Part shown: positions 16,139 to 32,804 of the stretch, one piece after another | Position numbering within the stretch: position 1 is the stretch's first letter | Layout: the number at the start of each line of letters is the position of its first letter | Assembly: GCA_018712645.1 (NCBI GenBank) | Contig: DVGO01000015.1 | Coordinates: forward strand, 1-54,602 | Direction: 5' to 3' | Length of the DNA stretch: 54,602 nucleotides | Source: Candidatus Faecousia faecavium | GTDB lineage: Bacteria; Bacillota; Clostridia; Oscillospirales; Oscillospiraceae | Notes under the pieces: generated by a model | Seen by the model: only the letters and a program-made list of their open reading frames with translations | Database searches by the model: none | Told to the model about the DNA's origin: nothing | Made by a program: the position numbers and the translations under genes

Positions 16139-16696
16139 GTGGAAGATCAGAAAATTATCGATCTGTACTTTGCCCGCTCAGAGCAGGCCATTCATGAAAC
16201 CGATGCCAAATACGGCGGATACTGCTACAGCATTGCATTCAACATCCTCACAAACCAGGAAGATTCCGAAGAATGTGTCAGCGACACCTACCTGTCGGCG
16301 TGGAACGCCATACCCCCGAAACGGCCCAATTTCTTGTCTGCATTTCTGGGCAGAATGACCCGGTACATTTCCATTGACCGCTGGCGCAAACGCAGCAGCG
16401 TCAAGCGGGGCGGCGGAGAAATCCCCTTGGCATTGGATGAGCTGCTGGAGTGCGTATCCCAGAGTGAGTGCATCGAGGATGCACTGCAAAAAAAGCAGGA
16501 CGCAGCTGTGCTGAATCACTTTCTCGATGCGCTGCCGGAGACGGAGCGAAATGTACTGCTTTGCCGGTACTGGTACCTAGATTCCATCGCTTCTATTGCG
16601 GAAAAAACAGGTTTCACCCCGGGAAAAGTTGCCACCATGCTATGCCGTACCCGAAAGAAACTGAGAATCTGTCTGGAAAAGGAGGAGTTGCTATGA
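16139..16696 (+). CDS. ECF-type RNA polymerase sigma factor
   Basis: A 185-residue sigma-70-like factor with only regions 2 and 4. Region 2 includes YCYSIAFNILTNQEDSEECVSDTYLSAWNAIP and the DNA-melting segment RMTRYISIDRWRKR; region 4 is LPETERNVLLCRYWYLDSIASIAEKTGFTPGKVATMLCRTRKKL. It starts at GTG 16139 with AAGGAGG 7 bases upstream. The stop overlaps the ATG of a one-pass membrane protein (ATGA at 16693), the usual sigma/anti-sigma arrangement. It is therefore likely held inactive by that protein and released by an envelope signal. Confidence 0.93.
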   Translation: MEDQKIIDLYFARSEQAIHETDAKYGGYCYSIAFNILTNQEDSEECVSDTYLSAWNAIPPKRPNFLSAFLGRMTRYISIDRWRKRSSVKRGGGEIPLALDELLECVSQSECIEDALQKKQDAAVLNHFLDALPETERNVLLCRYWYLDSIASIAEKTGFTPGKVATMLCRTRKKLRICLEKEELL

Positions 16697-18537
16697 CCAA
16701 TCAGGAACTGCTTGACCTGTTTGGGTCAGCAAAGGACATCTATATTCTGGATGCCCAGAAGCTGAGATCCGGAGAATCCGGGCAGAAAGTCCGGAAACTG
16801 TCCACCCGGAAACTATGGCTGCTGATTGCAGCAATTCTTGCCCTGCTGGCTCTGTCCGCAACGGCCTATGCTGCTATCCAGGCCCGCATCCGGATGACCC
16901 TGACCCGAAACAATCTGGAAACCACAGCGTCCCAGTATGGGGATGTTATCCGGACCTATTACCCCCAGAACATTGCGGAAGGATATGCTTTAACAAACGG
17001 TTCGATTTCCGGGAAAAACCGGCATCTTGTTTATGAAAATGCGGAAAAACAATCCATCACGTTTTCCATTTCCACAAAGGATTTTACCCAAGATATCCAG
17101 CTGAGGCCCCCGGTCACGGAGAAGACAGTGGAAATTGCCGGACAGAGTACCATGTTGAAAGGCACCCAGGACGGTACCCAGGTGTTGGCATGGAGCAATC
17201 CACAGGTTGGTTATTTTGCGTCCTTATTCACCACCGATCCCCAGGCCGACCTGGCAGCCATGGCAGAGAGTGTGGATGCCGGGGTAGCTTTGGAGGACAA
17301 TTTCCAGCTCCAGGACGGGGGATCCTGGAACCCCTGGTATCCGCAGAAGCTTCCGGAGGGATACAGCTGCGTCGATGTCACCCCTATCAGTGAAGGCAGC
17401 CAGATTGTTCGCTATGCCTCTGAGACAGATTCCTTCGAGTTTGCCATCTCCATCTCCCGGGACCTCAGCGATATTGGCACCGCTCCCCACAGCACCATGG
17501 AATGGGAAGATGTGGACATTGCCGGTGTGCCGGGACGGATGGTCACCATTGGCGGAGAGCAGCGGATTTTGTTCTGGAAGCAAGAATCCGAAGGTTCCAA
17601 CGCCATGCTGATGACCACCAATTCTCAGATAGATCTGATTTCCATTGCGGCCAGCGTCGGCCCCGGGGAGCCTCTGAAAGTCAGCGACTGGTATATAGCA
17701 GAACCCGACTATGATTTGGACATTTCCCAGGATCAGGAAAGCTATGTAGGATATGAGCCCTGGTATCCCCAGGAGATTCCCGAGGGATATCGCCTGATTC
17801 AAGTCACGGACCATACCTACGGGAATCAGTCCTACTTTTACGAAAACGATCATGGCGGAGATATCACCTACAAATTTACCTTCCAGCTGGGAGACTGGGG
17901 CAGTAGGTCCGGCATGGGAACGGTGGAAGAAGTGGAGATCAACGGGAATATGGGATATTACTTCCCGGAGACGAACACCATAACTTGGGTGCAGGAAGAA
18001 AAAGGCTTTGCCTTCTCTATTTGGGCAACGGAAGATGTGGATGTCATTGCCATGGCCCGCAGTGTGGCTCTGGGGCCAGATCTTACCCCCAGTCAGGATG
18101 AAAAACTCTCCCTGGCTCTGGAACAGTTGGGCGATTACCGGATTACCCAGCTGCCGGAAGGAATGGTGCAGGAGGAAATAGCTGGTTCTCCCCTGGAAGA
18201 CGGCGGAGGATGGTATTCCTATGTCCGACGCTGGTACGTTGACAAAACCACCAATGACAAAATTTATATGGCATATGAAAGCTATATCACAGCTCCAGAG
18301 GATTGCGCTTCTGCTCAGGAAGTAGCGGATATGCAAGTCGGCAGCGTAAATTACCCTGACGACGTGAAGCACCTGGAAATCAATGGCTGTCCGGCCTCTG
18401 CTCTGGAATACGACGGAAGCGCAACCGTGGCTTGGGCTGCCGGGGATGGGCAGAAAGGAACAGTTTTCTCCCTCTACAGCCAGGATTTTACCGCAGCGGA
18501 ATTGGTGGAAATCGCGAAGAGCGTCCGGGCGTTCTAG
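16693..18537 (+). CDS. Membrane-anchored protein with four DUF4367-like repeats, probable anti-sigma factor
   Basis: 614 residues. A short cytosolic tail (1-40, MTNQELLDLFGSAKDIYILDA), one membrane helix (41-63), then a large outer part. Four repeats can be read there, each opening with a proline/PEGY strand and closing with a short amphipathic helix: 89-197 (YYPQNIAEGY ... LAAMAESV), 215-325 (WYPQKLPEGY ... LISIAASV), 357-462 (WYPQEIPEGY ... VIAMARSV) and 481-613 (YRITQLPEGM ... LVEIAKSV). Related DUF4367 proteins normally carry one or two. The ATG overlaps the sigma stop, and the longer upstream frame is inside the sigma gene. The cytosolic tail probably binds the sigma factor; the repeats are probably the sensor. 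Ligand unknown. Confidence 0.8.
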   Translation: MTNQELLDLFGSAKDIYILDAQKLRSGESGQKVRKLSTRKLWLLIAAILALLALSATAYAAIQARIRMTLTRNNLETTASQYGDVIRTYYPQNIAEGYALTNGSISGKNRHLVYENAEKQSITFSISTKDFTQDIQLRPPVTEKTVEIAGQSTMLKGTQDGTQVLAWSNPQVGYFASLFTTDPQADLAAMAESVDAGVALEDNFQLQDGGSWNPWYPQKLPEGYSCVDVTPISEGSQIVRYASETDSFEFAISISRDLSDIGTAPHSTMEWEDVDIAGVPGRMVTIGGEQRILFWKQESEGSNAMLMTTNSQIDLISIAASVGPGEPLKVSDWYIAEPDYDLDISQDQESYVGYEPWYPQEIPEGYRLIQVTDHTYGNQSYFYENDHGGDITYKFTFQLGDWGSRSGMGTVEEVEINGNMGYYFPETNTITWVQEEKGFAFSIWATEDVDVIAMARSVALGPDLTPSQDEKLSLALEQLGDYRITQLPEGMVQEEIAGSPLEDGGGWYSYVRRWYVDKTTNDKIYMAYESYITAPEDCASAQEVADMQVGSVNYPDDVKHLEINGCPASALEYDGSATVAWAAGDGQKGTVFSLYSQDFTAAELVEIAKSVRAF

Positions 18538-18552
18538 CCACCTCAAAACTTC

Positions 18553-18581
18553 TTTACAGCTTCTCTTCCCTATGGTAAACT
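18553..18581 (+). promoter_or_regulatory. Promoter of the 18622 lipoprotein gene
   Basis: TTTACA, 17 bases, TAAACT with TGG extension, 40 bases before the start. Confidence 0.6.
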
Positions 18582-18621
18582 AAATGCAGCAATTTTTACA
18601 AAGGCGTAGGAGGGGCTGTAC

Positions 18622-19152
18622 ATGAAGAAACGTATCGTTTTCGTTTTGGCTTTGGTTTGGATGTTGTGCCTGGTGGGCTGTGGAGCGAAGCCCCTGACCT
18701 ACTACTCCCACGGCTATGATTTCAGCAACTCGGATTGTGAGCAAGTTATCTATCGGGTTTATCACTCTGACACAGATACCCACAACTGGGAACTGCTGAC
18801 CACGTTTACCTGCACTCCGGAAGCAGGTCACTATTTTGACGTGAGCCTGGATGGCAGTGAGAATCTGCTGAAGCTGAATTTGTTAGACCGTCAAGTTGAA
18901 AAGACGGAGAATGCCGAGTCCATCCAAACGGAAGTCATCGGGACATTTGAATTTGCCGTAAATGGATTTGACGGTGCGATTCCTGGATATCAAACCTTTC
19001 CGGTAGAAAATACCGATGGGGAGCAGTTTTACCGTCTGTATCCCATTACCAACGGTAACGGCAGATACTTTATGGATCTAGCATTGGATCAGCCCTATGA
19101 CACCCAGACGGACAACCTGGACAACATTCTCATCACCGTCACACTGGAATAA
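18622..19152 (+). CDS. Hypothetical secreted lipoprotein
   Basis: 176 residues with a lipoprotein signal: MKKR, a hydrophobic core, then lipobox LVGC with the lipidated cysteine at residue 20. The mature part (YYSHGYDFSNSDCEQVIYRVYHSD...) looks beta-rich, and I recognise no family. TAGGAGGGG stands before the ATG. It has its own promoter and terminator and lies between the sigma/anti-sigma pair and the BlaI/BlaR pair, so it may be an envelope target of either. No catalytic motif is visible. Confidence 0.8.
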   Translation: MKKRIVFVLALVWMLCLVGCGAKPLTYYSHGYDFSNSDCEQVIYRVYHSDTDTHNWELLTTFTCTPEAGHYFDVSLDGSENLLKLNLLDRQVEKTENAESIQTEVIGTFEFAVNGFDGAIPGYQTFPVENTDGEQFYRLYPITNGNGRYFMDLALDQPYDTQTDNLDNILITVTLE

Positions 19153-19179
19153 GAATTCGGCACAGCTGAATACCGCAAA

Positions 19180-19221
19180 GCCCACCGGCAATACAAACCG
19201 GTGGGCTTATTCCTTTTTTTA
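19180..19221 (+). terminator. Terminator of the lipoprotein gene
   Basis: GCCCACCGG/CCGGTGGGC stem around a 9-base loop, then TTATTCCTTTTTTT. Confidence 0.88.
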
Positions 19222-19251: not shown

Positions 19252-19298
19252 TTGACAAAGTTGTCTGTTTATAATAGACTATACTTGTCGGTTGACAA
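19252..19298 (+). promoter_or_regulatory. blaI-type promoter with two GACAA/TTGTC dyads
   Basis: TTGACA (19252-19257), 17 bases, TAGACT (19275-19280). Dyad 1, GACAA-AG-TTGTC (19254-19265), overlaps the -35 box. Dyad 2, TTGTC-GGTT-GACAA (19285-19298), lies at the start of the transcript. The same half site occurs four times. This is the placement expected for an autorepressing BlaI/MecI-type protein; the half-site sequence itself is not the textbook TACA/TGTA. Confidence 0.6.
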
Positions 19299-19321
19299 TA
19301 GACACATTGGAGGTATCCGGT

Positions 19322-19681
19322 ATGGAAGATTACAAGTTGGGCCAGATAGAATCCCGGTTTGCTGACTTTATTTGGGAAGGCGAGCCTATGACCACCAAGG
19401 AACTGGTGGATTTGTGCGCCGAAGAACTGCACTGGAAGCGGACTACCACCTACTCTATTTTGAAAAAACTGTGTGAAAAAGGATTTTTCAAAATGGAAAA
19501 CAGTGTGGTCACTTCTGTGATGTCCAAAGACGAATACAACGCCTTTCAGAGTGAAAAATTCGTAGAGGAAACCTTCCAGGGGTCTCTCCCTGCTCTGGTA
19601 CTGTCTTTTGGTTCCCGGAAGAAACTGAACAAAAAGGAAATTGAGGATCTGCAAAAAATCATCGACAGCATGAAGGAGTGA
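19322..19681 (+). CDS. BlaI/MecI/CopY-family repressor
   Basis: A 119-residue winged-helix repressor: IESRFADFIWEGEPMTTKELVDLCAEELHWKRTTTYSILKKLCEKGFF is the DNA-binding domain, and the C-terminal helices (KKLNKKEIEDLQKIIDSMKE) form the dimer region. A TTG at 19292 is in frame but lies in the operator; the ATG at 19322 has TTGGAGG in front. The M56 protease gene follows after 4 bases. In classical systems the transmembrane protease leads to cleavage of the repressor on sensing a wall antibiotic, and a similar circuit is inferred here. Confidence 0.93.
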   Translation: MEDYKLGQIESRFADFIWEGEPMTTKELVDLCAEELHWKRTTTYSILKKLCEKGFFKMENSVVTSVMSKDEYNAFQSEKFVEETFQGSLPALVLSFGSRKKLNKKEIEDLQKIIDSMKE

Positions 19682-19685: not shown

Positions 19686-22223
19686 ATGAAGGAACTCTTT
19701 TCCCAGGTGCTCAATATGAGCATGACTGCAAGTGTGATGATTGTGCTGGTGATTCTGGCCCGGTTGGCACTAAAGCGGGCACCGAAGATTTATTCCTACG
19801 TTTTGTGGTCTGTGGTACTGTTTCGGCTGCTGTGTCCGGTGTCCCTGCCCTCGCCGGTTTCTCTGCTTGGGATGCTGGATGCTCCGGTGGCGGAAAACGT
19901 TGGACTGACCACATCCGTTGCCTATATTCAACCAGAAACAGCCTTCCGAATGGGGCTGCCCTCAGAGCAAGCAGAAAGTCAAGTTCAACCAGAAGCGGAA
20001 GTTTCTGAGCCGCTTGAGACAAACAAGGTAGATCGCAAAGATACCATCTCTCTTCCAGATGTGCTGGCTGTGGTCTGGCTCACCGGAGCGGTCTGCCTGT
20101 TGTTGCTCGGTGTGGGAAATTACCTTCGGTTCCGCCGGAAACTGCGCTGCGCCTGGAGACTGGATAGTAATGTGTACCTGTTGGATCACATTGATACCGC
20201 ATTTGCGGCTGGTTTCTTCTCTCCGAAAATTTATTTGCCCTCCCATTTGCCCAAAGATCAGACTGCCTACATTGTGGCCCATGAGCGCTGCCATATCCGC
20301 CGCCTAGACCCGTTGACCCGACTGCTTGCCTTTACCGCAGTATGCCTGCACTGGTTCAATCCCCTGGTCTGGCTGGCCTTTGTACTGTCCGGAAAAGATA
20401 TGGAGATGAGCTGCGATGAGGCGGTGATCCGTCAGTTGGGCCCCGGCATCCGCAGCGCCTATTCCCAGTCGCTGCTGAATCTTGCTGCCGGGAACCGCCT
20501 CTTCCCTGGCGCCCCCCTGGCATTCGGGGAAGGAGATACCGGCAGTCGCATCCGAAACCTGGCGGCCTGGCGCAAGCCCAAAATTGGGGGCAGCATTCTG
20601 TGCCTGGTATTGTCCCTTGCCATACTGGCCGCCTGCGGATTGAATCCGGAACATCCCACAGCAGACTCCCCCGCCACGGTATCTGATTCCCTGCCAGAGT
20701 GGACAGAAGAGGAGGCCATGGCCCGCTGCCAGGAAGTACTGGAGCAGGTTCAGAGCAGCGAAGGGTATCAGATTCTGATTTATCAGGAGAATCTGGGGGA
20801 TCTGGCTTTGAACGAGACTTCCATGGGCAGCTTTTGGAAATCCGGGGATAATTGGCTCTCCATGTACCGAATTCCTACCGAACCGCCGCATAGTATTTTT
20901 GCCTACTTACATTGGGATGGCGTTTACTGGGACAACGAGACCACCGGAGGATTTGACGAAAATGGATGCATTCTCTGGGAAAGTTGGAAAACCGAAGAAG
21001 TTCCAGAACCTTGGCTGGCGGCGTTTCAGTGGTCTGATGAGAAAATTTCCCAGCTTTCCATAGAAGATACGTCGCAGCAGCGGATTGTCCGCCTGACTGT
21101 ATCTGAGCCTTATGTGGAAGGCGAATGGATCACGGAAGCTGGATATTCGGTAGACTTCGTGTTCAACCGGGACAGCACTTTCTCTCACGTCATTACACAC
21201 ACACAGAATTTCAGTGAACAAGAGGGAGAATTTGGGTATAACCGCACCATGTACATCCAGACTCTGGACACTTCTGCCGTGACAGCAGATATAGAAGCCT
21301 ACCGTGATGGAAAAAAACCTGCTATGACCCGGATTCAGCCGGAAGAATTGGCGCATGCAAAGGCAAGCATCGGCAAGGATATTACGGAATTTACAAACAT
21401 GGACGGTTCCGCTTCCTTCCAAATAGCAGATGCGCTGCCAGATCCGCCGGAAGGAAAAATACTCACAGCAACCCCCAGGTTGGTTACGGAAGATGAGGTA
21501 AAGGAAATCGAGAAACGCCTGTTCCCGGAAGAAGCCCAGACGGAGATTTATGTCAGCGCAGATCAGTTCTCTATCTATCTTTCAGGCAGCCAGCCACTGC
21601 AATGGGAAGTGCCCACACAGGAGCAGATAGCGGCAGCAAAAGCAGATGCCCAGAATATTCTGGACAGCATAGGCATTGGTCAATGGAGGGTAACCAGTGC
21701 AGAAGTAATACAGTATGGGTCTGAAAACGCTCCAGAGTACGGAATTCTGGTTCAGGCCGCCCAGATGCTTCAGGAATTGGAGCTGACAGTGGAAGAAAAT
21801 TGGAGTCTGGGCGCTACGGACACCAATGCATGGCTGCGTTTTACGCCAGATGGTACGCTGGTGGATATTGGCTGCTGGTCGCCTTTGCAAGTGACAGAAG
21901 AATCCAGCGTGGAAATTCTGGATCCGGACACTTTGCTGGAAAAGGCGAAGTCGGTTCTGGCCTCCTATCCTGCCATCCAAACCTTTGGAAAACCCGCCGA
22001 ATATACTGTGGAAATTACCGATATCGTTTGGGGCTCCACCCTGACCGGCGTAGATGCACAGACAGGCGCATACCGATATGTACCCAGTTTGATTTTCCGT
22101 GGGGAAATCCAGTTCCAGAGTCCGGAGGGACAATACCTGTTTTCCCAGGTTCTAGGAACGAAGAACCGTCTAATCCTCAACGCCTTGGATGGAAGCATCC
22201 TCTATACCGGATTGCCAGAGTGA
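19686..22223 (+). CDS. M56/BlaR1-type sensor metalloprotease with a very large outer domain
   Basis: 845 residues. The N-terminal 320 match the BlaR1/MecR1 membrane protease: helices near 12-29 and 37-55, a cytosolic zinc-protease domain with HERCH at 199-203 and SCDEAV downstream, HWFNPLVWLAF, and a last helix about 301-318. BlaR1 has a C-terminal penicillin-binding domain of about 250 residues; here the outer 525 residues contain no SxxK or KTG motif set and are instead beta-rich, acidic and partly repeat-like. An inner unit around 600-640 begins DPPEGKILTATPRLVTEDEV, a style shared with clostridial M56 proteins of unknown ligand. AAGGAG within the blaI end serves the start. It probably releases the adjacent repressor. 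Confidence 0.88.
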   Translation: MKELFSQVLNMSMTASVMIVLVILARLALKRAPKIYSYVLWSVVLFRLLCPVSLPSPVSLLGMLDAPVAENVGLTTSVAYIQPETAFRMGLPSEQAESQVQPEAEVSEPLETNKVDRKDTISLPDVLAVVWLTGAVCLLLLGVGNYLRFRRKLRCAWRLDSNVYLLDHIDTAFAAGFFSPKIYLPSHLPKDQTAYIVAHERCHIRRLDPLTRLLAFTAVCLHWFNPLVWLAFVLSGKDMEMSCDEAVIRQLGPGIRSAYSQSLLNLAAGNRLFPGAPLAFGEGDTGSRIRNLAAWRKPKIGGSILCLVLSLAILAACGLNPEHPTADSPATVSDSLPEWTEEEAMARCQEVLEQVQSSEGYQILIYQENLGDLALNETSMGSFWKSGDNWLSMYRIPTEPPHSIFAYLHWDGVYWDNETTGGFDENGCILWESWKTEEVPEPWLAAFQWSDEKISQLSIEDTSQQRIVRLTVSEPYVEGEWITEAGYSVDFVFNRDSTFSHVITHTQNFSEQEGEFGYNRTMYIQTLDTSAVTADIEAYRDGKKPAMTRIQPEELAHAKASIGKDITEFTNMDGSASFQIADALPDPPEGKILTATPRLVTEDEVKEIEKRLFPEEAQTEIYVSADQFSIYLSGSQPLQWEVPTQEQIAAAKADAQNILDSIGIGQWRVTSAEVIQYGSENAPEYGILVQAAQMLQELELTVEENWSLGATDTNAWLRFTPDGTLVDIGCWSPLQVTEESSVEILDPDTLLEKAKSVLASYPAIQTFGKPAEYTVEITDIVWGSTLTGVDAQTGAYRYVPSLIFRGEIQFQSPEGQYLFSQVLGTKNRLILNALDGSILYTGLPE

Positions 22224-22271
22224 TAGATAGACGAATTGCTGAAAGTATCCCATTGAGCATATCAAAACATT

Positions 22272-22312
22272 CCGAGGCGATAACGCAGTGTCGTTATCGC
22301 CTCGGATATTTT
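22272..22312 (+). terminator. Terminator of the BlaI/M56 unit
   Basis: Perfect 14-bp stem CCGAGGCGATAACG/CGTTATCGCCTCGG with a 6-base loop, followed by ATATTTT. The T-run is short but the stem is very strong. Confidence 0.8.
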
Positions 22313-22408: not shown

Positions 22409-23617
22409 TCACGATTCTTTGATAGGCAGCCATAACTCACACCGATAAGGCGTGCTGTTGTGAAACTCCGCTTTGCCGCCGTGGGCTGCGGCGATCTGGG
22501 CTACCAGCCGCAGTCCGGTACCATGGGCAGCTCCGCCGTCCGATTCCAGCGGATGATGCGAGATAGTTTCCGTTGAATCGGTTACCATTCCGCCTTCCAC
22601 CCAAAGAACGATCCACTTGCCCACGGTCTTGCCTCCCAATCGTATCAGACAGCCAGGACTGTTATGCCGCACACAGTTGGTAAGCAGGTTGTTTATCGCC
22701 CGACGTAAGAGGAAAGGGTCGGCGTTCATCTCTGGCAGCGGTATTTCTGGCAAGTCGATTTCAAAATCAGCTTCTGTCTCCATTCCGCTATTGAGAAAGT
22801 CCGCTCCGATTTGCCGCAATAACGTTTCCGGTCGCAGGATTTCCTTTCGCAGTGCCTGCATTTCACAGTCCAAGCGCATGGTCAGATTCAGATCGTTGAC
22901 CAAATCCCGAATGACCTGACTCTGTGATCGGATGGCGGATGCCTTCTGTCTGTACAGTGCGCTTATATCCGGAGCATCTTCCAGTTGCGCGGCGTAACCC
23001 ATCACCACGGAAAGTGGCGTACGGATATCGTGGGAAACGCCGTTGATCCAATTTGAGCGGGCAGCATCCCGTACCTGCTGATCCTGGCGGAACCATTTGC
23101 CCACAGTCAGCCAGGCAAGTCCCAGTACACTGCCCAGTGCTATCAGGAAAATACCAGCAAACCAGATAGGAATCTGAAGCAGGTCCTGAGTGTTCATAGC
23201 AATATCATGTTTCCAGACACTTCCTTTGGGGGAACCCACCACCAGCAGCCCGTCGGGACGCACCCAGCATCGGACGGGATAGTCTTCGAGATACCACCGG
23301 GTAAACGAGGCCACATCCGTAAGCGTGTATTGCTCCGGAGTATCCTCCGGTTTGCGCAGGGACCACACCACCTGTCCCTGGGGATTCAGCAGCATCATCC
23401 AGCAATCTTCCTCCAACAAATTCTCTCCGGTAAAGGTGTAGCTTTTTCCATCCCAGGTTAACGCCTTGGAGTACTCACTTATGGGAACATTCCACCCTCG
23501 TCCTCCATCAGAAATATAACAGCCAAAGGCAAACCATCCCAGCAAGGTAATCACAAAAATCAGCAGTGCGGAGACGGTCACCAGCATGGCTCCTTTTTGC
23601 AAACTGCGCAATTTCAT
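22409..23617 (-). CDS. Sensor histidine kinase of a lantibiotic-type two-component system
   Basis: 402 residues. Two membrane helices (about 10-33 and 149-171) bound an outer domain of some 115 residues (WDGKSYTFTGENLL ... LVVGSP). The dimerisation box is GVSHDIRTPLSVVMGY with H196. The N box is NNLLTNCVRHN, and the G2-like GTGLRLVAQIAAAHGG is present. The G1 box, normally DxGxG, reads VEGGMV, and the F box is not visible, so ATP binding may be altered. The ATG overlaps the stop of the response regulator (ATGA at 23614-23617). It lies divergent from the ABC transporter at 24455, its likely target. Confidence 0.9.
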   Translation of the reverse strand: MKLRSLQKGAMLVTVSALLIFVITLLGWFAFGCYISDGGRGWNVPISEYSKALTWDGKSYTFTGENLLEEDCWMMLLNPQGQVVWSLRKPEDTPEQYTLTDVASFTRWYLEDYPVRCWVRPDGLLVVGSPKGSVWKHDIAMNTQDLLQIPIWFAGIFLIALGSVLGLAWLTVGKWFRQDQQVRDAARSNWINGVSHDIRTPLSVVMGYAAQLEDAPDISALYRQKASAIRSQSQVIRDLVNDLNLTMRLDCEMQALRKEILRPETLLRQIGADFLNSGMETEADFEIDLPEIPLPEMNADPFLLRRAINNLLTNCVRHNSPGCLIRLGGKTVGKWIVLWVEGGMVTDSTETISHHPLESDGGAAHGTGLRLVAQIAAAHGGKAEFHNSTPYRCELWLPIKES

Positions 23618-24454: not shown

Positions 24455-25366
24455 ATGAACATTATCGAAACACATGATTTATGCAAGCAATATGGAAATG
24501 CAATGCGGGTATCCCACCTGGACTTAAACGTACCGAAAGGCAGCGTCTATGGCTTCCTTGGTCCAAACGGAGCGGGAAAGTCCACTACACTGAAAATGAT
24601 TTTGGGTTTGGTTCGTCCCACAGCAGGAAGCATTCAAGTGTTGGGAAACAACATGGATAACCAGCATCGTTTGGCAGTACTGCGACAGGTTGGGAGCCTG
24701 ATTGAAAGTCCCAGTTACTACGGACATCTTACCGGCGAAGAAAATCTACGCATTATCCAGACCCTTCGGGGGGTACCGGAAAAGAACATTCGGGAAGTCC
24801 TGCAAATTGTCCGTCTGGACGGTCAGCGCGGAAAGAAGGTTGCCCACTATTCCTTGGGTATGAAACAGCGTTTAGGCCTGGCGGCGGCGCTGCTGGGATA
24901 TCCCAAGCTACTGATTCTGGATGAGCCAACCAATGGCCTGGACCCAGCAGGCATCCAGGAGATGCGGGAACTGATTCGGGACTTACCCGGACGGTTTGGC
25001 ATGACTGTGGTAGTGTCCAGCCATCTGCTCAGCGAAATTGACCAGATGGCAGACCATGTGGCCATCATTCGAGAAGGAGAACTGGTATTTCAGGATTCTC
25101 TGCAAGTTCTCCATGGCCGCAGCAGTCATCACCTGGCACTGCGAACCACCAACAATACCGTTGCCCGGAGCCTTCTGTCAGAAAAGTCCCTAGACTGCCA
25201 GGAAGAAGATGGATTCCTCATTCTTCCTATTTTGTCTGACGAAATTACCGCCAAAATCACTTATTTCCTGGCAAAAAATCGCTTGGGTGTCCTGCGTCTG
25301 GAGGAGCGGCAGAAGAGCCTGGAGGATATTTTCCTGGAACTGACGGGAAGGGCGGTGAGCCTGTGA
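24455..25366 (+). CDS. Lantibiotic-protection-type ABC transporter, ATPase subunit
   Basis: 303 residues of the BcrA/MutF/EpiF group. Walker A GPNGAGKST near 36-44, Q-loop region VGSLIESPSYYGHLTGEENL, signature YSLGMKQRLGLA, Walker B LLILDEPTNGLDP and the H-loop SSHLLSE. The C-terminal 80 residues are the variable domain of the group. AAGGAGG stands 7 bases before the ATG. The GTG of the first permease overlaps its stop. Such three-part transporters expel or shield against lantibiotics and bacitracin-like compounds. The divergent two-component system probably controls it. Confidence 0.93.
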   Translation: MNIIETHDLCKQYGNAMRVSHLDLNVPKGSVYGFLGPNGAGKSTTLKMILGLVRPTAGSIQVLGNNMDNQHRLAVLRQVGSLIESPSYYGHLTGEENLRIIQTLRGVPEKNIREVLQIVRLDGQRGKKVAHYSLGMKQRLGLAAALLGYPKLLILDEPTNGLDPAGIQEMRELIRDLPGRFGMTVVVSSHLLSEIDQMADHVAIIREGELVFQDSLQVLHGRSSHHLALRTTNNTVARSLLSEKSLDCQEEDGFLILPILSDEITAKITYFLAKNRLGVLRLEERQKSLEDIFLELTGRAVSL

Positions 25367-26112
25367 AATTACTGGGACTGGAATTTTACAAATGCCGCCG
25401 ACGGAAAATTGTCCTGGTATGCGCCACAATGCTGGCAGTGGAGCTGATCTGGATGTGCGTTTTTTTGACCCGTCAGGATGCGGAGAATCTGCAGCAGGGT
25501 TGGATGCTTCTAATATACAACCTGATAATTGTAGACGCCATTGTCCTTCCCCTAAGCGTCGCCACGCTGGCCAGCCGGAATTGCGAACTGGAACATAAAG
25601 GCAGTACCTGGAAGCTTTTGGAAACCATGGTTCCGCCGGGAAGGCTTTATACGACGAAGCTTTGCTGGGGCGCCCTGGTGCTGGCACTGCTTCTGATGAT
25701 ACGCGCAGGACTCTTCTTGGCGGTAGGTGTGTACAGCCAGTTTCCCGGCCCGATTCCCTGGGGGTGGATGGGATTGCTTACCTTTGTTTCCTGGGCGGTG
25801 TCCATGATGGTATATGCCCTCCAGCAGGGTCTTTCCCTTCGATTTGTCAACCAAGCAGCGGCCCTGGTATGCGGTATCTCGGGAAGCTTTCTGGGGCTCC
25901 TGTCCATGCTATTTCCCGCATGGCTGAAACGGTGTGTACCCTGGGGGTATTATGGGCTTCTGAGTTTTGTTGGCATGGACTGGGAACCTGCCACTGGTGT
26001 AACCAGATTTTATTGGCTCTGGCCCCAGGCTGCGGATGCAGCGCTGCTGGCAGTTTGGGCCGCGTTGTTTCTGGCAGCAGGCCGGACGCTATTTGTAAAT
26101 AAGGAGGTATAA
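25363..26112 (+). CDS. Lantibiotic-immunity-type ABC permease (MutE/EpiE group)
   Basis: 249 residues with six predicted membrane helices and the N terminus KLLGLEFYKCRRRKIVLVC, close to the KAExxKxxR pattern of this permease group. It starts at GTG 25363, overlapping the ATPase stop (GTGA), which fixes the start. The second, similar permease begins 3 bases after its end, so the complex is probably one ATPase dimer with two different permeases, as in EpiFEG, MutFEG and SpaFEG. No bacteriocin structural gene is adjacent, so this is a resistance rather than a self-immunity setting. Confidence 0.87.
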   Translation: MKLLGLEFYKCRRRKIVLVCATMLAVELIWMCVFLTRQDAENLQQGWMLLIYNLIIVDAIVLPLSVATLASRNCELEHKGSTWKLLETMVPPGRLYTTKLCWGALVLALLLMIRAGLFLAVGVYSQFPGPIPWGWMGLLTFVSWAVSMMVYALQQGLSLRFVNQAAALVCGISGSFLGLLSMLFPAWLKRCVPWGYYGLLSFVGMDWEPATGVTRFYWLWPQAADAALLAVWAALFLAAGRTLFVNKEV

Positions 26113-26115
26113 ACG

Positions 26116-26844
26116 ATGCTTCTGCGATGCTTGAAAGCAGAACTGCAAAAATGCCGCCGCTCACCGGTATGGCTGGCGTTTCTGATGCTGCCAATTTTCC
26201 CCGCCGTCTTGGGAACCGGGAATTATCTTGCCAATCTGGAGGTGCTGGACAATGGATGGTACAGCCTGTGGAGCCAGCATACCCTGTTCTGCTCCACCTT
26301 TTTCCTTCCTGCTCTGCTGGGTGTATTCTGCGCCTGGCAGTGGCGGCTGGAACATTGGGATCATAACTGGAACAGTTTTCTCACCGCTCCCGTACCGGTG
26401 GGATGTTTATACGGAGCCAAACTGATTCTAGCAGCTGGGATGTCCCTTCTGGCGCAAGTCTGTATTGGGGTGCTGTTTCTGCTCAGCGGAAAAATGGCAG
26501 GCATAACTGCTCCCGTGCCGCCGGAATTGCTGCAGTGGCTGCTATGGGGCGCAGTGGGAGGAATTTCTGTGTGTGCGGTGCAGCTCTTTTTCAGCCTGGT
26601 GATTCGGGCCTTTGCCCCGCCGGTAGCCATGGGCTTAATCGGTGGTATTCTGGGGCTTTTAATGACCGCTCAGGGTCTGGGGTACGCTTTCCCCTACTCC
26701 CTGCTGTGCCTGGGAATGCGGGCCAATAATCCCCAGATGAAGCTGCAGATACTTCCCTTTTTCTTCTCTGCTCTGATCTATACCGCGGTATTTGCCATCT
26801 TAGCTGTGGGATATATTCGTCGGTGGGATGCGGCAGCGGAATAG
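26116..26844 (+). CDS. Lantibiotic-immunity-type ABC permease (MutG/EpiG group)
   Basis: 242 residues, six predicted helices, N terminus LLRCLKAELQKCRRSPVWLAFLMLPIFPAVLGTGNY, the standard opening of MutG-like permeases. WSLWSQHTLFCSTFF-type residues (here YSLWSQHTLF) and HWDHNWNSFLTAPVP are also typical of the group. AAGGAGG at 26101-26107 supports the ATG. It is third in the operon and is followed by a hairpin terminator at 26901. It works with the 24455 ATPase and the 25363 permease. Confidence 0.87.
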   Translation: MLLRCLKAELQKCRRSPVWLAFLMLPIFPAVLGTGNYLANLEVLDNGWYSLWSQHTLFCSTFFLPALLGVFCAWQWRLEHWDHNWNSFLTAPVPVGCLYGAKLILAAGMSLLAQVCIGVLFLLSGKMAGITAPVPPELLQWLLWGAVGGISVCAVQLFFSLVIRAFAPPVAMGLIGGILGLLMTAQGLGYAFPYSLLCLGMRANNPQMKLQILPFFFSALIYTAVFAILAVGYIRRWDAAAE

Positions 26845-27015: not shown

Positions 27016-27699
27016 ATGAAACACATTTTATTATTGGAAGACGATGAATCCTTGGGCCGTGGCATTGCCATGGCATTGGAATCTTCTCAGTTGGCGGTCA
27101 GACGGTGTACTTCCTTGGCTCAGGCGGAAGAATTGCTGGAAACGGGGCGGTTTGACCTGCTGATTCTGGACATCAATCTGCCTGACGGCAGCGGTCTGGA
27201 CCTGCTGCGCAAGCGCAGAGAAAGCGGCGACACTACCCCCATCATCCTACTCACCGCCAAGGATCTGGAGCTAGACGAGGTGACCGGGCTTGAAGCCGGA
27301 GCGGATGACTACATTACCAAACCTTTCTCTTTGGCGGTGCTTCGGGCCAGGGTCGCTGCCCAGCTGCGCCGGGAACAGAAAAAGCCTGCCGGAGTGCTGA
27401 CGTTTGGACCGTTTACCTTTGACTTTGAACGGATGGATTTTCGCCGGGACGGTACTGCGGTGGAACTGTCCAAAACCGAGCAAAAGCTTTTACGCCTGCT
27501 GGTAGAAAACCGGGGACGTACCCTGAGCCGGAATCAGCTGCTGGATGGCGTATGGACGGATGGGGCTGAGTATGTGGAAGAAAACGCCCTGTCTGTTACC
27601 GTGAAACGGCTGCGCAGCAAGTTGGAAGCGGACCCTTCCCGTCCGGAATACCTGAAAACGGTATATGGCATCGGTTATACTTGGGCGGTGAAACCATGA
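27016..27699 (+). CDS. OmpR/PhoB-family response regulator, second system
   Basis: 227 residues. Receiver domain with E8-D9-D10, phospho-acceptor D52 (LILDINLPDGSG), and DDYITKPFSLAVLRARV; winged helix with VELSKTEQKLLRLLVENRGRTLSRNQLLDGVW and NALSVTVKRLRSKLE ... KTVYGIGYTW. It resembles BceR/VanR-type regulators. The kinase ATG overlaps its stop (ATGATG). The ABC transporter genes 1.8 kb downstream, on the same strand, have dyads in their leader and are the likely target. Confidence 0.95.
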   Translation: MKHILLLEDDESLGRGIAMALESSQLAVRRCTSLAQAEELLETGRFDLLILDINLPDGSGLDLLRKRRESGDTTPIILLTAKDLELDEVTGLEAGADDYITKPFSLAVLRARVAAQLRREQKKPAGVLTFGPFTFDFERMDFRRDGTAVELSKTEQKLLRLLVENRGRTLSRNQLLDGVWTDGAEYVEENALSVTVKRLRSKLEADPSRPEYLKTVYGIGYTWAVKP

Positions 27700-28595
27700 T
27701 GGGATATATTGTGACAGGAATCGCCCTGACCGTTGCGTTGGCGGTAGTGATTTACAGCCGGTGGCGGACAGGGCGCACCATAAAGCGGCTGGATGCCATG
27801 TTTACCGCTGCCACCAACGGGACCTTCCTGGAAACACAGTTTGATGAAACCAATCTTTCCGCCCTGGAAAGCCGGGTACGGCGGTATCTGACAGCCAGTG
27901 CCCTGTCAGCCCGGAATGTCCAGGAACAAAAAGACCAGATCAGTACCCTGATTTCGGATATTTCCCACCAGACCAAAACCCCGGTAGCCAATCTGCAGCT
28001 GTATGCCCAGCTGTTGGAAGAACAGCCTCTGACAGAGCAGGAGCGAAGCTGTGCACAGGCCATTTCCTCCCAAGCAGAAAAGCTGCAAACGCTGATTGAA
28101 GCGCTGGTAAAAACGTCCCGGCTGGAAACGGGCATTCTTTCCCTGCATCCGCAGCCAGGGGAACTTTCCCCCATGGTGCAGCGGGCAGCAGCCCAATATG
28201 CCCCCAAAGCTTCCGAGAAGCAAGTTACCCTGACGCTGAAAAATACAGAGGGCAACGCCTGCTTTGATCCCAAATGGACGGAAGAAGCGCTGTGCAATCT
28301 ACTGGATAATGCAGTTAAATATGCCCCTTCCGGCGGCACGGTTTCGGTAGATGTCAAACAATATGAGCTGTTCTGCGCCATTCGGGTATCGGATACCGGC
28401 CCGGGGATTCCGGAAGCGGAACAGGCCAAAATTTTCGGACGATTCTACCGAGCATCCCATGCCTATCAGGAAGAAGGGGTGGGCATCGGCCTGTACCTGA
28501 CACGGCAGATTGCCCAGAAGCAAGGCGGCTATGTAAAAGTAGAAAGCAGTGCCGAAAAAGGAAGCACCTTTGCCTTGTATCTTCCCCGGGAATAA
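27696..28595 (+). CDS. Histidine kinase with a single membrane helix and no sensor domain
   Basis: 299 residues. A single N-terminal helix (MMGYIVTGIALTVALAVVIY) is followed at once by a short coiled linker and the kinase core: SDISHQTKTPVANLQLYAQLLEE with H91, N box NLLDNAVKYAPSG, G1 VSDTGPGIP, F box FGRFYR and G2 GVGIGLYLTR. With no outer domain it cannot bind an external ligand by itself; kinases of this style often receive the signal through a partner transporter, as BceS does from BceAB, and a BceAB-like transporter lies downstream. The start overlaps the regulator stop; a TTG at 27681 is in frame but unneeded. Confidence 0.92.
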   Translation: MMGYIVTGIALTVALAVVIYSRWRTGRTIKRLDAMFTAATNGTFLETQFDETNLSALESRVRRYLTASALSARNVQEQKDQISTLISDISHQTKTPVANLQLYAQLLEEQPLTEQERSCAQAISSQAEKLQTLIEALVKTSRLETGILSLHPQPGELSPMVQRAAAQYAPKASEKQVTLTLKNTEGNACFDPKWTEEALCNLLDNAVKYAPSGGTVSVDVKQYELFCAIRVSDTGPGIPEAEQAKIFGRFYRASHAYQEEGVGIGLYLTRQIAQKQGGYVKVESSAEKGSTFALYLPRE

Positions 28596-28625: not shown

Positions 28626-29357
28626 ATGACAAACGAATATGAAAATGACCATTTTTTTGAAGCTTATGCCCAGATGCCCCGGAGCAAGGAAGGGCTTTCC
28701 GCAGCGGGAGAATGGCATCAGCTGAAACCCCTGTTTCCGCCTCTGGAAGGAAAATCCGTGCTGGATTTGGGATGCGGATACGGATGGCACTGTAAGTTCG
28801 CATCCGAGCAGGGCGCAAAGGAAGTACTGGGAATTGACCTGAGTCAAAAAATGATTGCTCAGGCCCAGCAGCGCAGCAAGGGTGATGGAATTACTTACTG
28901 CGTCTGCGGAATCGAAGAATATGAGTATCCCCAGAGCAGATGGGACTGCGTGGTTTCCAATCTGGCGCTGCACTACATTGAAAATCTAGATGCCGTGTTT
29001 CAGAATGTGTACCGGACGCTGAAGCCGGGCGGGATATTCCTGTTCAACATCGAACATCCTGCTTTCACTGCCGGAGTCAATCAGGATTGGGAGTATGCTC
29101 CCGACGGGACACCCAAGTATTGGCCCATTGACAATTACTTCCTGCCCGGTGAGCGGATTACGAACTTCTTAGGCTGCCAGGTGCATAAGCAGCATCATAC
29201 CCTGACCCAAATTCTGATGGGGTTGCTGCGCAATGGATTTGTGCTGGAAGTGGTGGAGGAAGCCATGCCTTCCCCGCAGATGCTGGAGATCCCCGGTATG
29301 CGCGACGAACTGCGCCGTCCTATGATGCTGCTGGTTCGCTCCAGGAAAGAAGCCTGA
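28626..29357 (+). CDS. Class I SAM-dependent methyltransferase
   Basis: 243 residues with a Rossmann-type methyltransferase fold. Motif I is VLDLGCGYGWHCKFA (45-59), then GIDLSQKMIAQAQ, WDCVVSNLALHYI (motif II/post) and LKPGGIFLFNIEHPAF. It resembles the UbiE/Methyltransf_11 group, small-molecule enzymes of undetermined substrate. AGGAGG at 28612-28617 supports the ATG at 28626 over the in-frame ATG at 28608. It starts 30 bases after the kinase stop and is probably co-transcribed with the two-component genes, unusual company for a methyltransferase; a role in modifying an antibiotic or a wall precursor is only a guess. Confidence 0.88.
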   Translation: MTNEYENDHFFEAYAQMPRSKEGLSAAGEWHQLKPLFPPLEGKSVLDLGCGYGWHCKFASEQGAKEVLGIDLSQKMIAQAQQRSKGDGITYCVCGIEEYEYPQSRWDCVVSNLALHYIENLDAVFQNVYRTLKPGGIFLFNIEHPAFTAGVNQDWEYAPDGTPKYWPIDNYFLPGERITNFLGCQVHKQHHTLTQILMGLLRNGFVLEVVEEAMPSPQMLEIPGMRDELRRPMMLLVRSRKEA

Positions 29358-29383
29358 GGGTAATTTCCGGAACTTCTGTCAAA

Positions 29384-29403
29384 ACTGTCACATTCTTGAC
29401 AGT
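29384..29403 (+). promoter_or_regulatory. ACTGTCA/TGACAGT dyad overlapping a TTGACA -35 box
   Basis: Seven-base perfect arms with a 6-base centre. The right arm contains TTGACA (29396-29401), a consensus -35 box, and a third half site CTGTCA lies at 29376-29381. A good -10 at 16-18 bases is not obvious. This is a likely binding site for a response regulator controlling the ABC genes at 29478. Confidence 0.5.
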
Positions 29404-29424
29404 ACCAGGAAAGATTTCGGTGGT

Positions 29425-29458
29425 AAAGTCTGTATTGTCAAAAGACAGTACAGACTTT
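29425..29458 (+). promoter_or_regulatory. Strong leader hairpin before the BceAB-like ABC genes
   Basis: AAAGTCTGTA (29425-29434) pairs with TACAGACTTT (29449-29458). The inner TGTC/GACA pairs too, giving 15 pairs with one T-G wobble and loop AAAA. TTTTC follows, then the ribosome site of the next gene. It could be a terminator for the methyltransferase transcript, an attenuator, or a DNA operator. Confidence 0.55.
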
Positions 29459-29477
29459 TCTACATCAGGAGGACAAT

Positions 29478-30146
29478 ATGGCAATTCTGCAAACCAAAGA
29501 CCTGAAAAAGTACTATGGCTCCGGGGATACCCAGGTAAAGGCCCTGGACGGAGTGAACCTGAGCGTGGAACAAGGAGAATTTGTGGCCATTGTGGGCACC
29601 TCCGGTTCCGGAAAGTCCACCCTGCTGCACATGCTGGGCGGGCTGGATCGTCCCACCTCCGGCAGCGTCATGGTGGACGGCAAGGATATTTTTTCTTTGA
29701 AAGATGAAGCCCTGACCATTTTCCGCCGGAGAAAAATCGGCTTTGTGTTCCAGTCGTACAACCTGGTTCCGGTGCTCAGCGTATGGGAAAACATCATCCT
29801 GCCCATTCAGCTGGACGGGAACAAGGTGGATACGGAATATGTCCACAAGGTAATCGAAACCCTTGGCTTGGAGAAGAAACTGAAAAATCTGCCCAATCAG
29901 CTCTCCGGCGGTCAGCAGCAGCGGGTCGCCATCGCCCGGGCGCTGGCAGCCAAACCTGCCATTGTGCTGGCAGATGAGCCTACCGGCAATCTGGACAGCA
30001 GAACCAGCCAGGATGTGCTGAGCCTGATGAAGGTAACCGGGCAGAAATTCTCCCAGACCATGGTGATGATTACCCACAATGAAGAGATCGCCCAAATGGC
30101 CGACCGGATCGTCCGCATTGAGGACGGCCGGATTGTGACACGGTAA
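29478..30146 (+). CDS. ABC transporter ATPase, MacB/BceA type
   Basis: 222 residues, the typical size for a stand-alone ATPase partnering an FtsX-type permease. Walker A GTSGSGKST near residues 40-48, Q-loop FVFQSYNLVPVLSVWENI, signature LSGGQQQRVAIARAL, Walker B VLADEPTGNLDS and MITHNEEIAQMADRI. AGGAGG stands 7 bases before the ATG. The permease gene begins 12 bases after its stop. BceA-type units use mechanotransmission by the permease to free lipid II-cycle targets from peptide antibiotics; that function is inferred from the family and the upstream two-component genes. Confidence 0.95.
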   Translation: MAILQTKDLKKYYGSGDTQVKALDGVNLSVEQGEFVAIVGTSGSGKSTLLHMLGGLDRPTSGSVMVDGKDIFSLKDEALTIFRRRKIGFVFQSYNLVPVLSVWENIILPIQLDGNKVDTEYVHKVIETLGLEKKLKNLPNQLSGGQQQRVAIARALAAKPAIVLADEPTGNLDSRTSQDVLSLMKVTGQKFSQTMVMITHNEEIAQMADRIVRIEDGRIVTR

Positions 30147-30158
30147 GGGGGAAACAAG

Positions 30159-32804
30159 ATGAATGTCTCCAATCGTGGGTGCATCCGCAGACTGAGCCTG
30201 CGGGCACTGCGGGCAAACCGCACCCGGAATCTGGTAGCCATTATCGCCATTGCCCTGACAACCATGCTGTTTACCTCTTTGTTTACCATTACCCTGTCCA
30301 TCAACGAAGGCTTCCAGCAGAGCAATTTTCGCCAGGCGGGAGGCTGGAGCCACGGCGGTTTCAAGTACCTGACGGAAGATCAGTTTGAAGAGTTGCGAGA
30401 GGACCCGCTGATCTCCCAATGGGGCCTGCGGCGTTTCCTGGGAATGCCCATGGACGTTCCCTTCAACAAATCCCACGTGGAGGTGGGCTATTCCGATGCC
30501 AATCAGGCACACTGGATGTACTGTGACCCCGTCCAAGGCCGTCTGCCCCAGGAAGATACCAACGAAGCTGCCACCGACACCCATGTACTGGAATTGCTGG
30601 GGGTAGCGCCGGAGTTGGGAGCAGAATTTACCGTCACCTTCTATGTAGACGGTCACGAAACAACCCAGACCTTCACCCTTTGCGGTTGGTGGGAGTATGA
30701 CGAAGCCATCGTGGCCAACCATATCCTCATTCCAGAAAGCCGGGTAAATGCCGTGCTGGAAGAGGTTGGGGTAACGCCCCCCGGAAGCGATGGTATGACC
30801 GGCACCTGGAACCTGGATGTGATGCTCAAGCATGGCGCCCGCTCCATTGCTGCGGACATTGAGGAAATTCTGTCCAATCACGGCTATCAGAGCGAAAGCC
30901 GGGACGATAATTATATTGCCATCGGAGTCAACTGGGGATATACCGGGGCCCAGCTTTCGGAAAATCTGGATTTCGGAATGGGGTTGGTGCTTGCCGGAAT
31001 TCTGCTGCTCATTCTGTTTACCGGATATCTGATTATCTACAACGTGTTCCAGATTTCAGTGGCGGGAGACATCCGGTTCTATGGCCTGCTGAAAACCATC
31101 GGCACCACCCCCCGGCAGATCCGGCGGATTATCCGCACACAAGCTCTTTTGTTGTCTGCGGCCGGTATCCCCTTGGGATTGGTGTTGGGATGGTTATTGG
31201 GCGGTGTGCTCACGCCGGTAATTGTGGCCCAGCTCGATGCCGTTACCGCTGTGGTGTCGGTAAACCCGGCCATCTTTGTGGGGTCGGCAGTGTTTGCGCT
31301 GATAACGGTACTGATTTCCTGCCGCCGCCCGGGACGGATTGCTGGCAAGGTATCTGCTGTGGAAGCGGTGCGCTACACGGAGGGAAAGGTTTCCAACCGG
31401 AAAGAAAAGCGGGATGGCAAAGGCGTGTCCCTGCTGTCCATGGCCTGGGCCAACCTGGGACGCAGCCGGGGCAAGACCGTGATTACAATTTTGTCCTTGT
31501 CTCTGGCGGTGGTGCTGCTGACGATGACGGTCACTTTTGCCCGTGGATTTGACATGGACAAATATTTGGCCTATTTTACCGCCAGCGATTTCCTGGTGGC
31601 GGATGCGCAGAAATTTCAGGTCAGCGGCAGCTATTTTCATCCGGACATGGATGTGACCCAGGATGTCATGGATTCGATTCGTACCCAGGGCGGCATCACA
31701 GGAAGCGGCAAAGTCTATGGTCAAACATTTAACGCCCAGGAATTTATCACCGAAGAGTATTACCGTACACTTTACGGTCAATGGTCGACTCAGGAAGAGA
31801 TCGACAGCATGCTCCTCTTCGCAGAACGAACAGAGGACGGACGGATCGCTGACAGGGTTCAGCTCTACGGAATGGAGTCCTTTGCTCTGGAGCGTCTGAC
31901 GGTATTAGAGGGTGATTTGAGCAAGCTGGAAGAACCCGGAGGAAACTATGTGGCCGCTGTTTACTCCGATGATGACTATGGAAATCCGGAGTTGGACAGC
32001 CACTGGGCCAAATTGGGAGATACCGTGACCATCCGGTATGTGGAAGAATACGAGTACTACGATCCGTTTACCGGTGAAGTCCGTACTTCCTGGGAGAACG
32101 GGGCAGTAATTGCCAGCCGAGCAGTGAAATATCGGGATGTAACGTACACTGTAGCGGCCCTGGTGACAGTTCCTACCCCCCTTTCTTACCGTTACTATGG
32201 CGCTGACGAGTTCATTATGAACGACCAAACCTTCATCCGAGACAGCGGCACCGACAATGTCATGTACTATGCCTTTGATACCACCCCGGAAGCCAATGCC
32301 GCTATGGAGGCTTTTTTGCGGGACTACACAGAAAATCAAAATCCCCAGTTCGACTACGAAAGTAAGGCAACCTATGCCGGGGAATTTGAAAGCTTCAGGA
32401 GTATGTTCCTGCTGTTGGGCGGAGCGCTGAGCTTCATCGTGGGGCTGGTGGGAGTGCTGAACTTCTTCAACGCCATCCTCACCGGAATCACCGCTCGCCA
32501 TCGGGAATTGGCGGTGCTGCAATCCATCGGCATGACGGCCCGGCAGCTGCGCACCATGCTGGCACTGGAAGGTCTGCTCTATACCCTGGGGGCCGCTGCT
32601 CTAGCGCTGGTTCTGATTGTGGCTACTGCCCCGTTCCTGGGTCCGTCCCTCAACGCTTTGATTTGGTTCTTCACCTATCGCTTCACCATCTGGCCCATTG
32701 CTGTGGTGCTGCCGGTATTTGCGGTACTGGGCATTGTCATCCCGGTACTCAGCAGCCGGGCAGCCCAGCGCTACAGCGTGGTAGAACGACTGCGTCAAGA
32801 ATAA
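30159..32804 (+). CDS. FtsX-domain ABC permease with two large outer loops
   Basis: 881 residues. An N-terminal helix (NLVAIIAIALTTMLFTSLFTITLS), an outer domain of about 230 residues, three helices ending near residue 385, a fifth helix (GKTVITILSLSLAVVLLTMTVTFARGF), a second outer domain of about 290 residues and three C-terminal helices closing with VVLPVFAVLGIVIPVLSSRAAQRYSVVERLR: eight helices and two FtsX modules. BceB has ten helices and one large loop, so this is closer to duplicated MacB/LolE-like permeases of Clostridia. GGGGGAAACAAG precedes the ATG. It pairs with the ATPase at 29478 and is the last gene before a terminator. Confidence 0.92.
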   Translation: MNVSNRGCIRRLSLRALRANRTRNLVAIIAIALTTMLFTSLFTITLSINEGFQQSNFRQAGGWSHGGFKYLTEDQFEELREDPLISQWGLRRFLGMPMDVPFNKSHVEVGYSDANQAHWMYCDPVQGRLPQEDTNEAATDTHVLELLGVAPELGAEFTVTFYVDGHETTQTFTLCGWWEYDEAIVANHILIPESRVNAVLEEVGVTPPGSDGMTGTWNLDVMLKHGARSIAADIEEILSNHGYQSESRDDNYIAIGVNWGYTGAQLSENLDFGMGLVLAGILLLILFTGYLIIYNVFQISVAGDIRFYGLLKTIGTTPRQIRRIIRTQALLLSAAGIPLGLVLGWLLGGVLTPVIVAQLDAVTAVVSVNPAIFVGSAVFALITVLISCRRPGRIAGKVSAVEAVRYTEGKVSNRKEKRDGKGVSLLSMAWANLGRSRGKTVITILSLSLAVVLLTMTVTFARGFDMDKYLAYFTASDFLVADAQKFQVSGSYFHPDMDVTQDVMDSIRTQGGITGSGKVYGQTFNAQEFITEEYYRTLYGQWSTQEEIDSMLLFAERTEDGRIADRVQLYGMESFALERLTVLEGDLSKLEEPGGNYVAAVYSDDDYGNPELDSHWAKLGDTVTIRYVEEYEYYDPFTGEVRTSWENGAVIASRAVKYRDVTYTVAALVTVPTPLSYRYYGADEFIMNDQTFIRDSGTDNVMYYAFDTTPEANAAMEAFLRDYTENQNPQFDYESKATYAGEFESFRSMFLLLGGALSFIVGLVGVLNFFNAILTGITARHRELAVLQSIGMTARQLRTMLALEGLLYTLGAAALALVLIVATAPFLGPSLNALIWFFTYRFTIWPIAVVLPVFAVLGIVIPVLSSRAAQRYSVVERLRQE

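Follow-up and report, generated by a model that had tools for sequence, protein, structure and literature searches.

We analysed a window of 54,602 nucleotides from Candidatus Faecousia faecavium (contig DVGO01000015.1, which is contig 69 of a 2.29-Mb, 89% complete assembly in 82 contigs), in which genes for several envelope-sensing systems stand side by side at a variable site bounded by a gene for a RACo-type activase and a gene for a low-molecular-weight (LMW) phosphatase. The initial annotation had read four adjacent module types here: an extracytoplasmic function (ECF) sigma factor with a membrane sensor, a BlaI-type repressor with an M56 protease, a two-component system with a lantibiotic-type ATP-binding cassette (ABC) transporter, and a sensorless kinase with an ABC transporter of BceAB/MacB-like type. 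Profile searches of the window proteins against Pfam and NCBIfam located every one of these types where it had been placed (Table 1), with HisKA/HATPase and Response_reg/Trans_reg_C each occurring twice in the block. Only the lipoprotein counted with the fourth unit had to be moved, as its gene lies between the DUF4367 gene and blaI. We consider it probable that self-contained envelope-stress modules have piled up here at a variable position of the chromosome, each sensing and answering alone. This judgement covers jointly the pile-up, the separate switches, the outer part of the M56 protease, our reading of the second histidine kinase (HK2) and a promoter nested in a hairpin. Its support is at the level of sequence: gene content, gene orders, shared operators, covariation, the dependence of the hairpin on an upstream hk2 gene, a lipobox and predicted folds.

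Table 1. Genes and candidate regulatory features of the block (HK, histidine kinase; RR, response regulator; TM, transmembrane segment; SAM, S-adenosylmethionine; aa, amino acids).
Feature	Position	Strand	Basis
Candidate ECF-autoregulated promoter element CGGCTATATAGGTGAA	16097..16112	+	Similar element before ecf homologues, 11 loci by eye
ECF sigma factor	16139..16696	+	Pfam Sigma70_r2, r4_2; TIGR02937 above its cut-off
DUF4367 repeat protein, anti-sigma-like, one TM	16693..18537	+	Pfam DUF4367; ATGA overlap with ecf
Small lipoprotein, no family	18622..19152	+	LVGC lipobox
Two BlaI operator dyads (19262-19279, 19286-19303) over the blaI promoter	19262..19303	+	TTGACA at 19252, promoter scan
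BlaI-type repressor	19322..19681	+	Pfam Penicillinase_R
M56 (BlaR1-type) protease	19686..22223	+	PF05569, 165 bits; HERCH (HExxH) at residue 199
Lipobox LAAC at the end of M56 TM4, Cys317	codon 20634	+	Hydropathy, homologue comparison
Bidirectional terminator-like hairpin between M56 and hk1	22271..22306	.	Terminator scan
HK1, two TMs with an outer loop between	22409..23617	-	Pfam, hydropathy
RR1 (OmpR type)	23614..24300	-	Pfam
Lantibiotic-type ABC transporter: ATPase (24455-25366), permeases (25363-26112, 26116-26844)	24455..26844	+	Pfam, NCBIfam
RR2 (OmpR type)	27016..27699	+	Pfam
HK2, one N-terminal TM, no outer domain	27699..28595	+	Pfam, hydropathy
SAM methyltransferase	28626..29357	+	Pfam Methyltransf_11
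RR2 box	29375..29416	+	Conserved in macA leaders
Extended -10 element TGGTAAAGT	29421..29429	+	macA leader alignment
Inverted repeat, terminator-like; 5' arm holds the -10 element and the predicted start (~29436)	29425..29459	+	Covariation, folding
MacB/LolD-type ATPase (named macA here)	29478..30146	+	Pfam ABC_tran, NCBIfam
Duplicated FtsX permease, 881 aa, 8 hydrophobic segments	30159..32804	+	Pfam, hydropathy
Terminator-like hairpin after ftsX	32810..32846	+	Terminator scan

Gene order was compared across 136 genomes of the genus (G labels, with G000 the window's genome; L labels denote loci) using a 19.9-kb DNA query and mapping of fetched loci, and the context of the FtsX unit was evaluated in 80 named loci (flanks of 0-10 kb, tblastn E 1e-6). 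Among the matches listed and the mapped loci, the whole block order was found in G000, G081 and G020 (separate contigs). G147, another near relative, has both flanks and no match to the block: its RACo gene (95%) lies on one contig and its LMW-phosphatase gene (94%) on another together with tsaA and znuABC (87-100%), and the neighbouring lipoprotein gene is at 50%. Single units were distributed differently, with FtsX homologues (E 1e-60) in 21 of the 136 genomes and the second ABC2 permease (E 1e-12) in 7, a count that lacks the G020 copy because its contig ends. The ecf-DUF4367 pair occurs in G069 at 91% and 86% identity; the 2.4 kb before it gave no RACo match. The 80 named loci yielded, near the FtsX unit, no blaI or DUF4367 match, M56 once (27%) and an ECF gene once (41%, 10.6 kb off). 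The units thus seem, from these gene orders, to be exchanged and assembled variously, the stack of four being a local outcome.

The units have candidate operators of their own. Full matches to the BlaI dyads occurred in the window only at blaI, and the loose matches (22 and 13) equalled the shuffle means (22.2 and 12.3). By eye, a TTGACA and dyads of the same type are common to 16 blaI upstream regions, including that of the window; BlaI would sit on both window dyads, over the promoter of its own gene. A scan for the RR2 box gave a single match in the window and a single one in the whole genome, and RR2 would have one target, the macA-ftsX promoter. The sole perfect match to the ECF element in the window precedes ecf, with 11 loose matches against 7.0 in shuffles; because this motif is short and has many loose matches, further ECF targets are possible.

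The leader of macA appears to nest a promoter in a terminator-like hairpin. Relatives from Oscillospiraceae and Lachnospiraceae to Syntrophomonas and Geosporobacter have the same order of RR box, TGnTAnnnT and inverted repeat. In a MAFFT alignment of 20 genus leaders, free of any motif placement, the A at 29425 and the T at 29429 are invariant. Over 95 leaders (20 genus, 75 named), in which the hexamer was placed by a score favouring TGnTAnnnT, the last T was found in 95, the A in 93, the preceding T in 86 and the G in 88. The inverted repeat scored at least 9 in 77 of the 95 (at least 8 in 81), compared with 4.6% of 1900 shuffles preserving base composition only, and in those 77 it began at +1 relative to the hexamer in 59, at 0 in 11 and at +3 in 7. 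A stable stem is kept by compensatory changes, as in intrinsic terminators: in alignment A3 (61 sequences, 53 distinct, picked for having the hairpin and hence biased towards pairing), 12 of 15 pairs changed on both sides, and 94.6% of cells paired, a share that was 83.6% after shuffling the 3' letters and 27-50% after sliding the arms. In the window, to which the folding energies apply, the dyad folds at -20.9 kcal/mol, RNA from the predicted start at -3.6 and a longer leader piece at -26.6 (z -7.2); elsewhere among the 95 leaders that run sometimes missed the -10 element, and it misplaced it in G019, G139 and L192.

With a 15-pair stem and a tentatively T-rich end after an upstream operon, this element resembles an intrinsic terminator, from which it differs in that the following promoter has its -10 element and start region in the 5' arm. 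Read-through RNA from rr2-hk2 would form the whole hairpin and stop, whereas RNA begun at the macA promoter would carry little of the 5' arm and continue. A terminator insulating macA-ftsX from rr2-hk2 read-through should be lost where rr2-hk2 is not upstream. Of 64 leaders that directly follow hk2, 59 carry the hairpin, against 0 of 8 that do not (3 unknown; Fisher 1e-7); with relatives collapsed at 75% identity the counts were 14/4 against 0/5 (p 0.004). In L153, L164 (entered as unknown in this count) and L165, where rr2-hk2 stands downstream of ftsX, the hairpin is gone and the box retained. The longest T-run near the stem end measured 3 to 8 in 81 leaders and at least 4 in 70. If the reading is true, the nested promoter would be a compact way to tie a transporter solely to its own regulator; many gut Clostridia share the design, and those relatives whose kinase genes lie elsewhere serve as natural controls.

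The M56 protein resembles BlaR1 in having an M56 zinc protease domain beside a BlaI-type repressor with operator dyads. A role as beta-lactam sensor was considered and rejected: the protein is without a penicillin-binding domain, it scored 67.4 of 400 bits against the NCBIfam model blaR1_generic, below the equivalog cut-off, and its outer part had no transpeptidase match in Pfam at E 5. The predicted structure shows LolA/LprG-like and YycI/YpeB-like folds there instead. The window's M56 is thus probably not a beta-lactam sensor, and it differs from BlaR1-BlaI and MecR1-MecI in the missing penicillin-binding outer domain, in these folds and in a lipobox at TM4. This TM4 reads as a lipoprotein signal, with WRKPK followed by 14 hydrophobic residues and LAAC, and the strict lipobox is present in 103 of 116 close homologues with varying outer parts. 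The outer part, about residues 335-845 and of lipoprotein type, would steer the protease, which would cleave BlaI on contact of that part with an amphiphilic or other envelope ligand and not with a beta-lactam. Gut Clostridia have M56/BlaI pairs in abundance (6041 homologues below E 1e-20 among 7998 scored candidates), and these are easily taken for beta-lactam sensors; the outer folds and the lipobox found here suggest a different class of ligand and a processing step open to direct test.

Among the homologues, G158 (L106 8744-11238) encodes M56 and the outer part as two overlapping open reading frames that separate within TM4, and stand-alone outer parts resembling those of G158 occur as P0030 (9 member sequences) and P0031. 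The M56 homologues P0089 and P0114 have other outer domains (PF19499; PF03816), which suggests domain exchange behind the same lipobox helix. In P0027, which like P0028 is an M56 homologue of 813 residues, 26 protease-domain residues just before TM4 are missing by eye relative to P0025.

The FtsX unit combines FtsX domains with a LolD/MacB-type ATPase, as in type VII ABC transporters (MacB superfamily); the macA product scored 230 bits against the LolD-type model, under that equivalog's cut-off of 308. The permease has two FtsX stretches, two large outer loops and two MacB-like halves, and it matches MacB-like 5xu1 (E 3e-7) as well as LolC, YtrF and MacB. It shares with MacB, LolC, YtrF and YbbP two FtsX domains and an outer loop between helices 1 and 2 of each half, and differs from MacB-type systems in that the block has no MacA-type adaptor gene. 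It is not BceB-like, having 8 hydrophobic segments and those two large outer loops. The term sensorless was apt, since HK2 has one N-terminal hydrophobic segment and no outer domain.

In Bce-type modules the kinase reads its transporter. By analogy, HK2 would probably read the state of its own FtsX transporter, given the shared layout of an OmpR-type regulator, a kinase without outer sensor and an adjoining FtsX-type ABC transporter. Membership of the Bce type itself was rejected on hydropathy, by the permease plan and because HK2 has one TM instead of two; the box and the leader hairpin also differ from BceRS-BceAB. According to PMC12646458, the BceB permease comprises 10 helices with a single outer domain, and YbbP also has 10 helices; the window permease has 4+4 segments. 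The methyltransferase gene between hk2 and macA is found only in part of the relatives (G071, G081, G158, L124, L126, L128 and L199).

The ECF protein has sigma regions 2 and 4 without region 3, as is usual for its class. Its neighbour overlaps ecf like a co-transcribed membrane partner and contains two DUF4367 stretches at E 0.001 and four at a looser cut-off, the last of which is predicted to have the fold of the RseB/MucB C-terminal domain. The sigma factor would be held by this membrane protein as its anti-sigma factor. Unlike known membrane anti-sigma/ECF pairs and RseB/MucB, a single chain here forms the anchor and several repeated outer domains, and the protein has no RseA-type family match in Pfam or NCBIfam. 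The view of the DUF4367 and M56 sensors as the uncharacterised parts of the locus is borne out. In the models, the RseB-C-like domain stands beside a LolA/RseB N-terminal-like fold in the outer part of the adjoining M56 protein. Our searches of open-licence PubMed Central literature found no paper linking DUF4367 to sigma factors, none on a promoter/terminator design like that of macA and none on a lipobox in BlaR1/M56.

The lantibiotic-type unit consists of an ATPase (ABC_tran) and two ABC2_membrane_4 permeases with a divergent HK/RR pair, which is the layout of LanFEG-type immunity transporters with a two-component system. The lantibiotic labels lie under the curated cut-offs: scores reached 267.8 of 309.75 for TIGR03740, 29.5 of 117.2 for MutG and 29.1 of 145.2 for MutE, and the first permease had no LanF/LanE/LanG match in NCBIfam. 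Unlike a LanFEG locus, the block has no lantibiotic genes among its annotated genes. HK1 and RR1 would drive the divergent peptide-immunity transporter.

From the grouping of these units, the initial annotation had proposed one integrated wall-antibiotic defence locus, whose units act and are kept together, and had suggested conservation of the whole block as a check. All four units are of envelope-stress type, G081 keeps the whole order despite about 10% protein divergence and two insertions, and several two-unit linkages recur in other genomes. Set against this, the whole block was seen, among the matches listed and the mapped loci, in 3 of 136 genomes only, the window's genome and two near relatives, between which retained order is expected anyway; G147 has the flanks without it; the units lie apart in the 80 named loci; and the BlaI dyads and RR2 box are found only at their own units. 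We regard an integrated locus as improbable and favour the pile-up of independent modules. Several results weigh against the pile-up. In G070, G158 and L184 the RR2 unit has the ABC unit, whole or decayed, next to it; ECF-DUF4367 adjoins the RR2 unit in G158 and, more distantly (38%/28%), in G133, and adjoins blaI-M56 in G005; and a set like abcA/rr1/hk1 adjoins the FtsX unit in G144. Such linkages leave room for functional coupling. The stack is also mildly unexpected by chance: when units were scattered at random, some four fell inside 12.1 kb in 1.4% (30 units), 3.4% (38) and 7.1% (46) of trials, unit numbers guided by genome-wide counts of 23 HATPase_c matches, 20 sigma r4_2 matches (17 above cut-off) and 8 rows of M56 matches taken to represent about 6 genes, the first two of which include some genes outside sensor units. 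Further adverse points concern the parts. The M56 model has a mean pLDDT (predicted local distance difference test) of 71 and a pTM (predicted template modelling score) of 0.38. The hk2-hairpin link fades when relatives are collapsed at 65% identity (3/2 against 0/3, p 0.20; no power at 58%), five loci with hk2 upstream have no hairpin (L141, L152, L161, L187 and L195), the T-run is only 3 in 11 of 81 leaders, and a simple terminator scan missed the window hairpin because its TTTT overlaps the stem end. On balance, the stack itself appears nearly ordinary, and the real interest lies in the lipobox-bearing M56 receptor and the hairpin-nested promoter.

Each of these two features has its own rival. 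Instead of terminating transcription, the macA dyad could act in DNA as the operator of a repressor, or in RNA as an element for processing or stability; it overlaps the -10 element and start region, where repressors bind, and the window copy has a weak T-run behind its stem. The arms vary widely in sequence yet keep their pairing, which fits a structure better than a fixed operator, and the dyad is absent from the 8 leaders without hk2 upstream, among which L153, L157, L165 and L166 retain the RR2 box; RNA from the predicted start would moreover be without the 5' arm. We therefore find the operator or processing role doubtful and prefer the terminator. For the M56 lipobox, the processing view holds that TM4 is a working lipoprotein signal peptide in this clade, with Lgt and Lsp lipidating and cutting at its Cys, so that the outer part, which binds the ligand, leaves the protease as a separate lipid-anchored lipoprotein and signals by re-association or by the cut itself, not through a continuous receptor chain. 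This is a tentative proposal that we judge less likely than not. A little better than evenly placed, in our estimation, is the account in which lipidation and cleavage never occur and the Cys is kept for another reason such as packing, signalling, metal or redox; small residues in a hydrophobic helix would then give the lipobox look as a by-product. In its favour, a Cys without lipobox is frequent in more distant M56 proteins of the genus (AVCFLTNP, AICLLTSP) and some have no Cys, the strict pattern is broken in 13 of the 116 close homologues, and an internal helix is not necessarily accessible to Lgt and Lsp. Against that account stand the retention of the strict lipobox despite varying outer parts, a free lipoprotein of G015, encoded 1.2 kb away from M56, that aligns with the M56 sensor through signal peptide and Cys (34%, 487 columns), and the predicted LprG/LppX fold of the domain after the Cys, LprG and LppX being lipoproteins.

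Several minor observations concern the rest of the block and its relatives. The small lipoprotein had no Pfam or NCBIfam match, also at a looser Pfam cut-off, and is retained in G081 at 88% identity. Stem-like sequences were seen by eye after its gene and before rr2. An Rfam scan of the window gave no family above threshold, and one of the macA leader gave only sub-threshold miRNA, snoRNA and RAGATH-type matches. Beside the RR2 unit, G070 (L107) has only a C-terminal ATPase piece of a decayed lantibiotic-type ABC unit and no RR1 match, and G158 (L105 4222-4392) has a 46% identical piece of the second permease. The DUF4367 gene of G081 is broken near residue 297 (L085 18707-19603, L086 1-8786, L087 16375-17340): the first part, on contig 4, is followed by tRNA-Pro, a gene for a SIR2_2 protein and two phage-integrase-family genes, and the last part lies on contig 20, as if an integrative element or rearrangement had intervened. 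About 12 kb between M56 and hk1 in the same genome (L087 437-12690) encode a protein kinase, PP2C, VWA and leucine-rich-repeat proteins and a GHKL/LytTR pair.

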